Assembly (NCBI GenBank): GCA_036874045.1
Contig: CM072337.1
Coordinates: 1,488,001 to 1,552,000 of the forward strand
Direction: 5' to 3'
Source: Cymodocea nodosa
Taxonomy: Eukaryota > Streptophyta > Magnoliopsida > Alismatales > Cymodoceaceae
DNA: 64,000 nt
How positions within the stretch are numbered: the stretch's first letter is position 1; each line of letters opens with the position of its first letter. The notes under the pieces are model-generated. The model had not been told where the DNA came from and made no database searches. It saw nothing but the letters and a program-made list of their open reading frames with translations. The translations under genes and the position numbers were made by a program. Of the stretch, positions 1 through 23,952 are shown in pieces.

Positions 1-1571
1 CTTAGTGCCTTTTTCAGCTTAAAAACGAGAACAAGCGCATCCACAAATGCAAAATAACGTTGAAGGAAAACCATGAAAGCCACATATGTTAATTATAGAT
101 GAGTACCTTGAGGCGTTCAGCATCATGCATGGGCCTGTTTGAATGTTTAATGCCAAGATAGCTGGAGATGAAATCAATGACAGGAATGGCCTCAAAAAAA
201 GGGGTGGCAGATAGATCTGCAACATGAGGAGGAGAAGTTAACAGAACAGATTACATTCATTGAATAATAACACAATGAAATGGGAGAATGGAATAGAACA
301 ATGTTGATTGACTCTTGAAGAGAATGATGGAAATCATACCAACGTTAAAAGAAAGTCCCAACTGAGATGGGCGGAGAGATTGGTAGTAACCTTTCCAGCA
401 CTCCACACCATTTCCGAGTGGTTCTGGTTGGCCAAAGTATGGGGAGAAGAAGGATCTCCCCACACAAACATGCCTGAACAGAAGAAAAAAAGTATTAGAA
501 AAAGGGTGAATGGAAACCAACAAAAATTTGCATTTAATCATACTATGTTGCGGTGGAATGATGGATGGATATCATACTTGGTGGATGCCAAAGCACGCAG
601 AACCACCTCAAGCGACTGGATGGTTTCACGTGGACAATCTAGTTGACGTCCTTGAACAAAGCTTTGCAATTGGTGACAGTCCAACTTTGCAGCAAAGCTG
701 ATTAAAACTTTGTATTCCCTGTGAGTCATACGTGGAAAAGAAGGTGTTCAAATAAACAAGGCAGGCCAGAGGAATCGGTACGTCTTTTCAGTTGAATCCA
801 TATGGAGGAGAACGAGAGCTCGAAAGGCATAACATGTTAAGAACTCACTTGGAACTGCTACCACCGTCATCATTCAACTTGACGGCAAAGACTTCGGATT
901 CAAACGGTAAAGGACCAACGGTGTAAATGTTCTTCCGCCCATCGTATGCCGGAAGCCGTCTTCCCAGACGAGAGTCTCTGTAAAGAATGACAAGCTTTCC
1001 GACGATGTCTCGGCTGAGACGTTTGGAAGTCACCTCCGGGGTTATTGTTAGCTAAGTGGATGATGGAAAAAAAAGGTAAAGGGTAGTAAGGAAACAGTAG
1101 AGGAGGAAGATATGGATTGGAAGAGAGGAGGAGGAGGAGGAGGAGGAGGAGATACCCCGATCCATCGATCACACTTACATCGTAGTGATATATTTCAACG
1201 TCAGATTTGGCCAAAGTGACCAGGAAATGGTTCGCCGTCACCAAAACATTCTTCCCTACCGTCCCAAAACCCGGCCTGCAAGGCGGCCTCAGGGCCCTAG
1301 AGGACGACGGAGGCCTTGTCGCGGCGGAATCGATGGAAAGGCTTTCCAATTGAGACGCCACTGAAGACGGAGGCGGTGGAGGAGAGACAAGTGCTTGCCG
1401 AGGCACGTATTGACTTCCGCCCACAATACCACTAACACCACCACCACCACGTCCTCCTACACTAACAGCAGTGCCCTGGTTGCCCCGTGCACGAGGATGG
1501 GCACCACCGCCCCTACCGCTACCGCCGCGCCCTCCGCGGCCATCTCGACCGCTTCCTCTTCTCCCATACAT
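1..1571 (-). CDS. Argonaute protein, copy A (5' part only, continues past left window edge)
   Basis: AGO slicer family, the small-RNA-guided effector of silencing. Exons read leftward: 1179-1571, 849-1051, 578-718, 340-473, 107-216, and the first 17 bases of exon 6 at 1-17; all joins keep frame. The protein begins with a Gly/Arg-rich tail (RGG-like, about residues 2-45), then Pro/Ser-rich linker, the conserved RPGFGT motif and ANHFLV strand of the N domain, [19 protein letters not shown] and the start of PAZ. The start is the ATG at 1571; an in-frame GTG just upstream is not used as start here. Exon structure matches AGO-B exactly except that exon 3 is 12 nt shorter, removing four residues at its splice acceptor. 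In exon 2, 53 of 62 residues agree with AGO-B by my count. MID and PIWI lie outside the window, so intactness cannot be judged. Clade: probably AGO5/MEL1-like, from general resemblance. Confidence 0.9.
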
Positions 1572-1736
1572 CACCGGCGAAAGCAGAACGATGGCACGAA
1601 GATTGAATGAAGAGCGAGGTGGACCTCATATTTCCTCTTAAAGAGCTGCCTTACTTCATCGCGAAGAGTACCGCCTTTTCCGTAGTGCACTGAAAAAGAG
1701 AAAACGGAATGTATCAATTATATCCATCGTACGATA
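1572..1736 (-). promoter_or_regulatory. Short promoter/5' leader interval of AGO-A
   Basis: Only about 165 bases separate the AGO-A start codon from the 3'-flank relic of another AGO copy. The interval is moderately GC-rich and holds no clear TATA box. If AGO-A is expressed, its promoter must either lie in this short stretch or extend into the old 3' flank of the neighbouring copy. Assignment is by position only. Confidence 0.3.
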
Positions 1737-21100: not shown

Positions 21101-23952
21101 TTTCCACAAGTGTTTTCCAAAGGAAATAATTTTTTTTACCATTGGGGCAGGCAATAAGTGTGCTCCAACACGAGTTGGATTGTTTGCAATATGGATTCCA
21201 AACTCTTTGGCGAATTTATCATTGGCATAATCATTACCAGTAACCATCTGAAGAATACAGAAATTTCAGCAACTAGCATAAACTGAAAGGTATAATAAAC
21301 TACAAAACTATTAAGCATTGAATGATAGTATTGAGTAAAAGGGTTTATCATTATATAAATCCAGATTCTATTTCTTTCTCAACCAATGTGAGACATACAC
21401 ATTACGTCTTAAGCCTACATACAAGTGTCTTTTTCTTAAATTTGACGGATGCGCATCAAAAGCATGTGAAATTTCAACTTAAAATCAATAGATGGTGAGT
21501 GGAAACATCCATCATTATATAAACCATGGTTCTATTACTTTCTTTAATTGATTTAAAACTTTTCAACATCATCATACAAGTGAAACAAATTACATCAGTT
21601 ATTCTCTCTCGCACACCACACCACGGAGTAGTTGCAGTAATAATAAATAATATCATCGTTTTAGCACAAGCATTATCACCATCTCAACATCATGTTCACA
21701 GTGAAAATGAGATGAAAAGAGAGCCAACATTATCGAATAACACAGAAATCAAAAATTTACCTCCTTGACAGCATCCAATCTTTCCTGGGGACGCCTGGCA
21801 GTCACAAACAATAACTCCCTAACCTGTTTGTCGTTGAGCTTCTTCGTATACCTCTGACCCGGAACAATTTTACACACCTGCATCAAATCTTCCTATCAAA
21901 AAAATATTCCAATCGACACATATAATACTACAACAACAACATTGACAATCTAAACCACAATCCAAAAGCATAGGACCCGCCACATGAATGCCGATAACAT
22001 ATATAATCCGTCTGAAATTTTATATGTCAACCAGACCACATTCAAAATCACCTCAATTGGCACGTACGTTGGTCTAGATTCACTTCCACATTGGAGGCAA
22101 GGCCACTTGTCAAACTGCAACTGGAATCTGTAATTTTGATGAAAATATCCGGCAACGGAAATTTGCAATCCATCGGGTCCTTCAAACCTAACAACCACAG
22201 ATAGACAGCTCAAGGAAGTCAAGCTTAAAGGCTTAAGAGAGGCATTGGCGCACATCAAATTAGCAGGGCAAGAAAGGAAGCATACATCAAATGAGCAGCC
22301 GGCATAGAAGAGACACCAGTGACTCTGTAACGTCTACACATACCAGGCCTGTGGGTTGTCTCAACATTGACCCCCCTTAGTGCTTTTTTCAACTTAAAAA
22401 GGAGAATAAACACGTCAACATATGCAAAACAACGTTCAAGGAAAACCATCAGAGCCGCATAAGTTAATTACAGATGAGTACCTTGAGGCGTTCAGCTTCT
22501 TGCATAGGCCTGTTCAAATACTTTATGCCAAGATAGCTGGAGATGAAATCAATGACAGGAATAGCCTCAAAAAAAGGGGTGGCAGATAGATCTACAAAAT
22601 GAAGAGAAGTTAATAGAATAGATTGCATTCGTTGAACAATAAGAAAATAGAATAGAGCAATATCGATTCATCCTTGAAGAGAATGATGGAAATCATACCA
22701 ACGTTAAAAGAAAGTCCCAACTGAGATGGACGGAGAGATTGGTAGTAACCTTTCCAACACTCGACACCATTTGCGAGTGGTTTTGGTTGGCCAAAGTAGG
22801 GGGAGAAAAAGGATCTACCTACACAAACGTGCCTGCACAGAGGAAAGAAGGATTAGGAAAAGGATGCATGGAAACCACCAAAAATTTGCATTAAATTATA
22901 AAATGTTGTCACGGAATGATGGATGCTGCCATACTTGGTGGATGCCAAAGCACGCAGAACCACATCAAGTGACTGGATGGTTTCATGGGGACAATCTAGT
23001 TGTTGTCCTTGAAGAAAGCTTAGCAGACGGAAATAGTCCAATTTTGCAGCAAAGCTAATCGACACTTTGTATTCCCTTTCCTTCGTCCTGTGCCATACAT
23101 GGAAAAGAAGGTGTACAAAAATAAGCAAGGCAGCTCAAAGGAATGCACATCTTTTGGTTGAATCCAAATGGAGGAGAACGAGAGCTCCAAAGACATAACA
23201 TGTTAAGAACTCACTTGGAACCGCTACTGCCGTCATCATTCAACTTGACAAAGAAGTCTTCGGATTGAAACGGTAAAGGGCCGGCGGTGTAAATGTTCTT
23301 CCGCCCATCGTACGCCGGAAGCCGTTTACCAAAACGAGAGTCTCTGTAAAGAATGACGAGCTTTCCGACGATGTCTCGGTTGAGACGTTTGGAAGTCACC
23401 TCCGGGGTTATTGTTAACTAAGTAAGTGGATGATGGAAATAAAAAAAATAAAGGGTAAAAAAAGTGCAACAGAGGAAGATATGGATTGGAAGAGAGGAGG
23501 AGGAGGAGGAGAGATTTCGATCCATCGATCGCACTTACATCGTAGTGATATATTTCAGCATCAGGTTTGTCCAAAGTGACCAGAAAATGGTTCGCCGTCA
23601 CTAAAACCTCCTTCCCTATCGTCCCAAAACCCGGCCGGCCAGCCGGCGTCAAAGCCTTGGAGGACGACGGAGGCGTTGGCGCCGCAGAATCGATGGAAAG
23701 GTTCATCAATTGCGACGCCACTGTAGATGTTGTGGACGTCGAAGACGGAGGCAATGGAGCAGGAAAGGCAGTTGGCTGTCGAGACAGATACTGGCTTCCA
23801 CTTACACTATCACCACGACCACTGCCTCGGCTTATACCTCCACCATCACCACGTCCTCGTCCTCTACCGCCACGTCCACGAGATTGAGCACCGCCCCTAC
23901 CGCCATCCCCGCGCCCTCCGCGACCAGCTTCGCCGCCTCTTCTCCCAGACAT
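18149..23952 (-). CDS. Argonaute protein, copy B (complete, 951 residues, AGO5/MEL1-like)
   Basis: Small-RNA-guided slicer. Exons leftward: 23539-23952, 23215-23417, 22935-23087, 22699-22832, 22482-22591, 22286-22392, 22052-22187, 21761-21877, 21140-21247, 20970-21044, 20640-20759, 20391-20529, 20181-20302, 19962-20096, 19727-19869, 19570-19632, 19419-19482, 19169-19295, 18993-19066, 18732-18826, 18503-18534, 18149-18333; the sum is 952 codons with stop. Gly/Arg-rich tail (about 3-48), N domain (RPGFGT, ANHFLV), PAZ (about 302-419), MID ([16 protein letters not shown]) and PIWI. Slicer residues are present: D675 (FGADVTHP), E716 (HRDEI), D761 (FYRDGVSE), H898 (YYAHLAAF). It ends in VMFYC as AGO1/AGO5-type proteins do. 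Intron 15 appears to use a GC donor (GCAAGT after 19727); otherwise the frame fails. Introns are mostly short; intron 8 (21248-21760) holds a repeat-like insert. Start chosen at ATG 23952, before the RGG tail. The AGO5/MEL1 placement (germline phasiRNA binding in rice) is from resemblance; AGO1-like is the alternative. Confidence 0.93.

Follow-up and report, generated by a model that had tools for sequence, protein, structure and literature searches.

Two Argonaute genes lie head to tail at the locus

The 64-kb stretch of the Cymodocea nodosa genome analysed here (C5:1488001-1552000, hereafter the window) carries two Argonaute genes, AGO-A and AGO-B, with pieces of Argonaute sequence between them; related sequence was sought throughout the 374.6-Mb, 28-contig assembly. 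Self-BLAST and gene models predicted from splice sites and homology place both genes on the minus strand, head to tail. AGO-B (18149..23952, minus strand), whose model is backed by Pfam and by a PDB match, is read by its splice sites as 22 exons encoding 951 amino acids with no internal stop. The window holds exons 1-5 and the first 17 nucleotides (nt) of exon 6 of AGO-A (1..1571, minus strand; GT-AG introns in this part), and the gene is complete across the window's left edge (C5:1489571-1483887), with 22 exons and an open frame of 939 amino acids. Positions 1-1572 in AGO-A match 22376-23953 in AGO-B on the same strand with 81.4% identity, and the proteins are 86% identical over 902 columns. 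Both genes have a GC-AG type intron 15, with the donor GCAAGT at window 19721-19726 in AGO-B and at C5:1485443-1485448 in AGO-A. The similarity begins at the start codon; upstream of it, identity is 44%, with 110 of 198 sites differing.

Six Argonaute Pfam models score above cut-off in AGO-B, in the order ArgoN, L1, PAZ, L2, MID and PIWI. By domain content, both predicted proteins belong to the AGO subfamily of eukaryotic Argonautes, AGO-B by its own Pfam scan and AGO-A through its 86% identity to AGO-B. In both we find the residues that we take to be the D-E-D-H slicer tetrad (D675, E716, D761 and H857 in AGO-B; D663, E704, D749 and H845 in AGO-A), and because these presumed slicer residues are kept, both proteins should act as small-RNA-guided AGO5-type effectors. 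Over exons 1-15 (723 codons), outside the conversion tract described below, the ratio of nonsynonymous to synonymous divergence (dN/dS) between the genes is 0.33, which suits constraint on both copies.

Two features of the gene models stand apart from these comparisons. Intron 8 of AGO-B (window 21332-21569) contains a dispersed repeat, where 26 of the 35 rows returned by a gene-length AGO-B genome query land. In front of AGO-A, between its ATG and the nearest Argonaute piece (window 1572-1733), an acceptor-like site is followed by an open stretch of ~38 codons with a TGA just before the ATG; this is possibly a 5′ untranslated region (UTR) exon, and it gave no Pfam match and three PDB matches, all with E 0.63 or worse.

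Assignment to the AGO5 clade comes from the MID domain, in which AGO-B scores 144.9 bits against AGO5, 118.6 against AGO10, 117.9 against AGO1 and 48.8 against AGO2 (4g0m), the compared chains presumably being Arabidopsis proteins. The best full-length PDB match of AGO-B is ‘Protein argonaute 10’ (992.7 bits), among matches in which AGO5 is represented only by a 139-residue MID chain. A MID tree unites AGO-A, AGO-B and AGO5 with support of 87/78, under the strict mark of 95/80; its other loci are incomplete tblastn reconstructions, of which those on C18 and C3, with largely empty MID rows, were omitted, those on C2 and C21 form long branches, and those on C7 and C19 miss a stretch. The closeness of the MID domain to AtAGO5 over AtAGO1, AtAGO10 and AtAGO2 places AGO-A and AGO-B in the AGO5 clade by sequence. 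Genome-wide, 29 PIWI matches resolve into nine loci (C2, C21, C18, C12, C19, C7, C3 and two on C5), and the C5 pair are the only adjacent ones. As adjacent paralogs in the same orientation, AGO-A and AGO-B form a tandem array, and the head-to-tail AGO pair of the original prediction, which had been made from the letters of this stretch, is thus borne out by both gene models and by the MID comparison.

Two Argonaute tails and a short inverted piece lie between the genes

Between AGO-A and AGO-B lie two same-strand relics, each an AGO tail with downstream flank, and one 68-bp reversed scrap. All of these had been listed in the original prediction; self-BLAST recovers every one, at coordinates that agree within a few bases, and chance is excluded. 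Relic 1 (1734..2313, minus strand) comprises approximately the last 30 coding nt, the stop region, the 3′ UTR and a downstream segment, flank F, of an AGO unit; it matches the AGO-B tail at 17642-18181 with 80.5% identity over 589 columns (E 2e-161). Relic 2 (10778..11067, minus strand) has 54 bp of AGO 3′ UTR and flank F but no coding nt, and matches 17802-18070 with 88.6% identity (E 3e-108) and relic 1 with 93.9% (E 5e-125). Genome search and alignments delimit flank F behind AGO-B itself, at 17642..18034 (minus strand). The locus thus has three copies of the junction between an AGO tail and flank F, one each at AGO-B, relic 2 and relic 1; the flank F of relic 1 stops ~160 bp in front of the AGO-A ATG.

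Alignment of the 3′ ends defines where the copies part. AGO-A, relic 1, relic 2 and a dead copy at C5:605 kb (see below) have the 3′ UTR in common as far as a short TTTCTTC motif, AGO-B lacking ~20 nt there. Past this motif there are three distinct flanks, one behind AGO-A, one behind the dead copy, and flank F, which belongs to AGO-B and both relics and has no match behind AGO-A or behind the dead copy. Where all three copies of flank F align, Jukes-Cantor (JC) distances are 0.049 between relic 2 and AGO-B, 0.066 between the relics and 0.086 between relic 1 and AGO-B; in the far part of the flank, relic 1 and AGO-B differ by 0.122. The AGO-A and AGO-B UTRs differ by 0.243 on 82 sites, which is above all of the flank F values.

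The third piece (7363..7430, plus strand) is an inverted copy of the end of exon 16 and intron 16, with sharp ends; it matches AGO-B 19518-19585 with 95.6% identity over 68 bp (E 4e-24). When the genome was queried with the AGO-B gene, the part corresponding to this piece aligned only with AGO-A, AGO-B and the scrap itself. It resembles repair filler more than the remains of a unit.

The relic sequence is confined to Argonaute loci

Apart from the intron 8 repeat, the AGO-B query returned nine AGO5-related rows: AGO-B, AGO-A (two rows), relic 1, relic 2, the 68-bp piece, a dead copy (two rows) and C10:1127416-1127550. The dead copy is the 3′ half of another AGO5-type gene at C5:604954-606519 (L017), outside the window, on the same strand and 0.88 Mb from the array, and consists of three collinear pieces covering intron 13/exon 14, intron 17/exon 18 (47 bases, E 1.4e-4) and exon 22 to the 3′ flank. 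The C10 piece (L036:1501-1635) is a 135-bp exon 13/intron 13 scrap, 88% identical to AGO-B and 86% to AGO-A, whose exon portion is interrupted by an in-frame stop; the scrap lies ~300 bp from a copy of an LTR-like repeat (LTR, long terminal repeat). Closer to the array, tblastn at E 1 detected no additional AGO sequence elsewhere in the window or in the 25 kb to its left, and a profile scan of C5:1458001-1552000 added to the known pieces only matches of E 0.11 and 1.2, which we take as chance.

A 3′ flank occurring at many non-AGO loci had been named in the original prediction as the observation that would turn the relics into a mobile repeat. Genome-wide, a 631-bp query spanning relic 1 found five places: relic 1, relic 2, the AGO-B tail, the AGO-A tail and C5:604955-605122, a piece of the dead AGO copy. 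All five are AGO-linked. Because the search skips very common words, an LTR-like piece of the window (14363-15224) was run as a control, and it gave 9715 first-look candidates, 40 of them scored. The relic sequence thus lacks the many dispersed copies of a mobile repeat, and we rejected that identity for it.

The control belongs to a high-copy family whose pieces fill a large part of the DNA between AGO-B and relic 2. One copy lies at 11471..12347 (plus strand; 81% to 14363-15224) and the second, found by self-BLAST and genome search, at 14363..15224 (plus strand); further related pieces in self-BLAST are at 11072-11721, 15402-16055 (reversed) and 16072-16386. We call the repeat at 11471..12347 and 14363..15224 LTR-like on our own reading.

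Gene conversion has probably kept the 3′ ends of AGO-A and AGO-B alike

The divergence between AGO-A and AGO-B changes abruptly along the gene. From the start codon it is 14.6% as far as 20235 and 6.6% as far as 19601; it then falls to 2 of 800 sites as far as 18801, rises to 16 of 317 as far as 18483, and is 0 of 314 from there to the stop codon, after which the sequences are unlike. These layers come from a three-state scan in which we set the divergence levels and the switching rate. They delimit a recent tract in common with AGO-A (18148..19600, minus strand), with 18 differences over 1431 sites, 16 of which fall in the patch 18483-18800, and an older layer (19601..20234, minus strand) with its 6.6% divergence against 14.6% upstream. 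The recent tract reaches from exon 16 to the stop codon through exons and introns alike: introns 16, 17 and 18 and exons 17, 18, 19 and 22 are 100% identical, whereas among introns 1-14 identity is 78-91% in 13 and 70% in intron 12, and in the 3′ flank it is 63%. The longest identical run is 618 sites, whereas none of 2000 random shuffles of the 5726 aligned sites gave a run above 111; such shuffling takes no account of exons and introns evolving at different rates, which is unimportant given the identical introns. Synonymous divergence (dS) is 0.287 in exons 1-15 and 0.014 in exons 16-22.

Near-identity in exons and introns alike, bounded by diverged sequence on both sides, is the pattern of interlocus gene conversion, and recent non-crossover conversion over an older layer, with at least two layers, is the best account of these alignments. 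A crossover is disfavoured because it would not restore the diverged 3′ flank. Selection alone was rejected as the cause of the identical 3′ end, since introns 16, 17 and 18 are also 100% identical. In the last exon, the dead copy differs from AGO-A at 13 of 128 sites and likewise from AGO-B; being equidistant, it gives no direction of transfer. The original prediction missed both this conversion and the dead AGO5 pieces elsewhere.

The locus as a probable contracted array

Together, these observations suggest that a head-to-tail array of AGO5-clade Argonaute genes has contracted at this locus, a reading to which we assign a probability of about two in three. In the direction of transcription, the ancestral order would have been AGO-B, unit X, unit Y and AGO-A, with every unit-to-unit junction bearing one and the same segment, an AGO tail, flank F and the start codon that follows. 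Deletion, or overwriting by repeats, would later have removed the bodies of X and Y, and their tails would survive as relic 2 (X) and relic 1 (Y). The surviving pair would still recombine through non-crossover gene conversion, which may have kept the PIWI end near-identical while the N, PAZ and MID parts diverged. In favour of this reading is the tail-F junction at AGO-B, relic 2 and relic 1, a pattern to be expected if two middle units had gone from a head-to-tail array. We also count for it the unrelated open reading frame that starts ~0.4 kb downstream of AGO-A and the profile scan of C5:1458001-1552000, whose best match beyond the known pieces had E 0.11. The local turnover proposed in the original prediction we take as real. 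Its further proposal, that at least one and probably two AGO units were lost, holds in part: two tails and a common junction speak for it and make whole lost units between AGO-A and AGO-B likely, but no gene bodies are present.

Several observations weigh against such an array. The relic with the most coding sequence retains some 30 coding nt, which makes the existence of X and Y as complete genes something we infer, and there is DNA in the gap between the relics that bears no resemblance to AGO. No flank F lies upstream of AGO-B, which requires either that F is filler of the junctions or that AGO-B has lost its copy. In addition, the 54-bp UTR piece has JC distances of 0.088 to AGO-B and 0.078 to AGO-A, and the whole UTR of relic 1 has 0.198 and 0.219, respectively; as the relic UTRs are no closer to AGO-B than to AGO-A, it is flank F by itself that marks the relics as B-type in origin. 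Finally, the exon 13 scrap on C10 shows that small AGO pieces can be copied without an array.

This last point leads to the rival that deserves the most attention, in which faulty repair or replication made local copies of short AGO tail-plus-flank segments and the locus never held a third whole AGO5 gene. Such an origin would explain why relics 1 and 2 are nearly free of coding sequence, and the 68-bp inverted piece and the 135-bp piece on C10 show that small AGO scraps do occur elsewhere. However, relic 1 puts the tail-F junction directly before a real AGO gene, AGO-A, and both relics keep the orientation of the array; moreover, the dead 3′-half gene with its three collinear pieces 0.88 Mb away indicates that dying AGO5 units do occur in this genome. 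We therefore regard tail-only duplication as unlikely, although as a serious competitor to the contracted array. A mobile origin, in which the relics are a repeat or AGO pieces carried by a transposon, draws on the repeat-related stretch that adjoins relic 2 (11072 onward) and on the LTR-like copy near the C10 scrap, but with 9715 candidates for that repeat across the genome the latter proximity may be chance. No LTR-like match adjoins relic 1 in the self-comparison, and the five AGO-linked places of the relic query largely refute this origin, which we consider the least probable of all.

The conversion has a rival of its own, namely that the identical 3′ thirds are a product of assembly collapse or mis-joining. 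Four of the eight contigs shown have sizes in multiples of 5000, which may reflect scaffolding. Yet there are no N bases in the window or in the extracted regions L009, L010, L011 and L017, locus-specific sequence bounds the tract on both sides in both genes, and a divergence graded through 0, 0.25, 5 and 6.6% is hardly to be expected from collapse; an artefact of this kind thus seems highly improbable.

Neighbouring features

The region also holds other features. Downstream of AGO-A by ~0.4 kb is an unrelated 390-amino-acid open reading frame (ORF; L009:4306-5478, minus strand) whose motif PPKWDGPSGTIILVNKPKG recalls, as we take it, a TruB-type pseudouridine synthase. In the gap between the relics, at about 8400-8705 (minus strand), we read by eye a possible small secreted-peptide ORF with a TATA-like element upstream; Pfam gave only a sub-threshold GRP match there (13.3 bits against a cut-off of 30). 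On the AGO-B side, a gene-like neighbour is the ORF at 28449-28955 (plus strand) with an amino-acid-kinase domain (E 1.2e-8), and farther on lie a 264-amino-acid frame with a Myb/SANT-like DNA-binding domain (48339-49133, minus strand; E 3.5e-11) and a tRNA-Pro (AGG) gene (56354-56428, minus strand). A scan of the window for RNA families at gathering score gave one tRNA only.

Relation to known systems and implications

Tandem AGO5 pairs are already known. In the parts of the reports available, strawberry FvAGO5a/FvAGO5b (PMC9859564) and cotton GhAGO5a/b and GhAGO5c/d (PMC9408788) are such pairs, and like AGO-A and AGO-B they are two AGO5-clade genes side by side from local duplication. In contrast to the present locus, those parts mention neither relic tails nor gene conversion, and strawberry FvAGO5a is described there as lacking slicing activity (PMC9859564), whereas AGO-A and AGO-B both keep the presumed tetrad and are predicted slicers on that basis. 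Near-identical tracts between paralogs resemble those in a survey of conversion between rice duplicates, as excerpted (PMC2277409); at this locus it is the PIWI end of two Argonautes that the tract spans. Our literature searches found no report joining argonaute, AGO5 and gene conversion, and among the titles listed by a broader search none was on a plant AGO5 locus and one was on Phytophthora Argonautes; in the accessible portion of a dipteran Argonaute paper, conversion between paralogs merely could not be ruled out (PMC4824172). What this locus adds is a clean case of conversion plus decay in what is largely ordinary cluster turnover.

Rice MEL1/AGO5c is described, in the section available, as a loader of reproductive C-21-nt phased small interfering RNAs (phasiRNAs), and AGO5 copies have been proposed as reproductive phasiRNA loaders in eudicots (PMC8368212). 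The likeness of AGO-A and AGO-B to MEL1 is clade membership, and any link to phasiRNAs would be by family resemblance only. A more speculative idea, which we consider improbable, is a two-module system in which repeated conversion keeps one slicer (PIWI) end while the N-tail, PAZ and MID diverge for different guides or tissues, and in which the AGO-A promoter would be built on the flank F of a dead sister.

These results have implications for how AGO5 genes are counted and dated. AGO5-clade genes expand unevenly among plants, and the debris suggests that this locus has seen more duplication than its present number of genes reveals. Gene trees made from the last third would date AGO-A and AGO-B as very recent duplicates, although their 5′ parts are much older (dS 0.014 versus 0.287). 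The same conversion tract offers a simple test for split roles of AGO-A and AGO-B.

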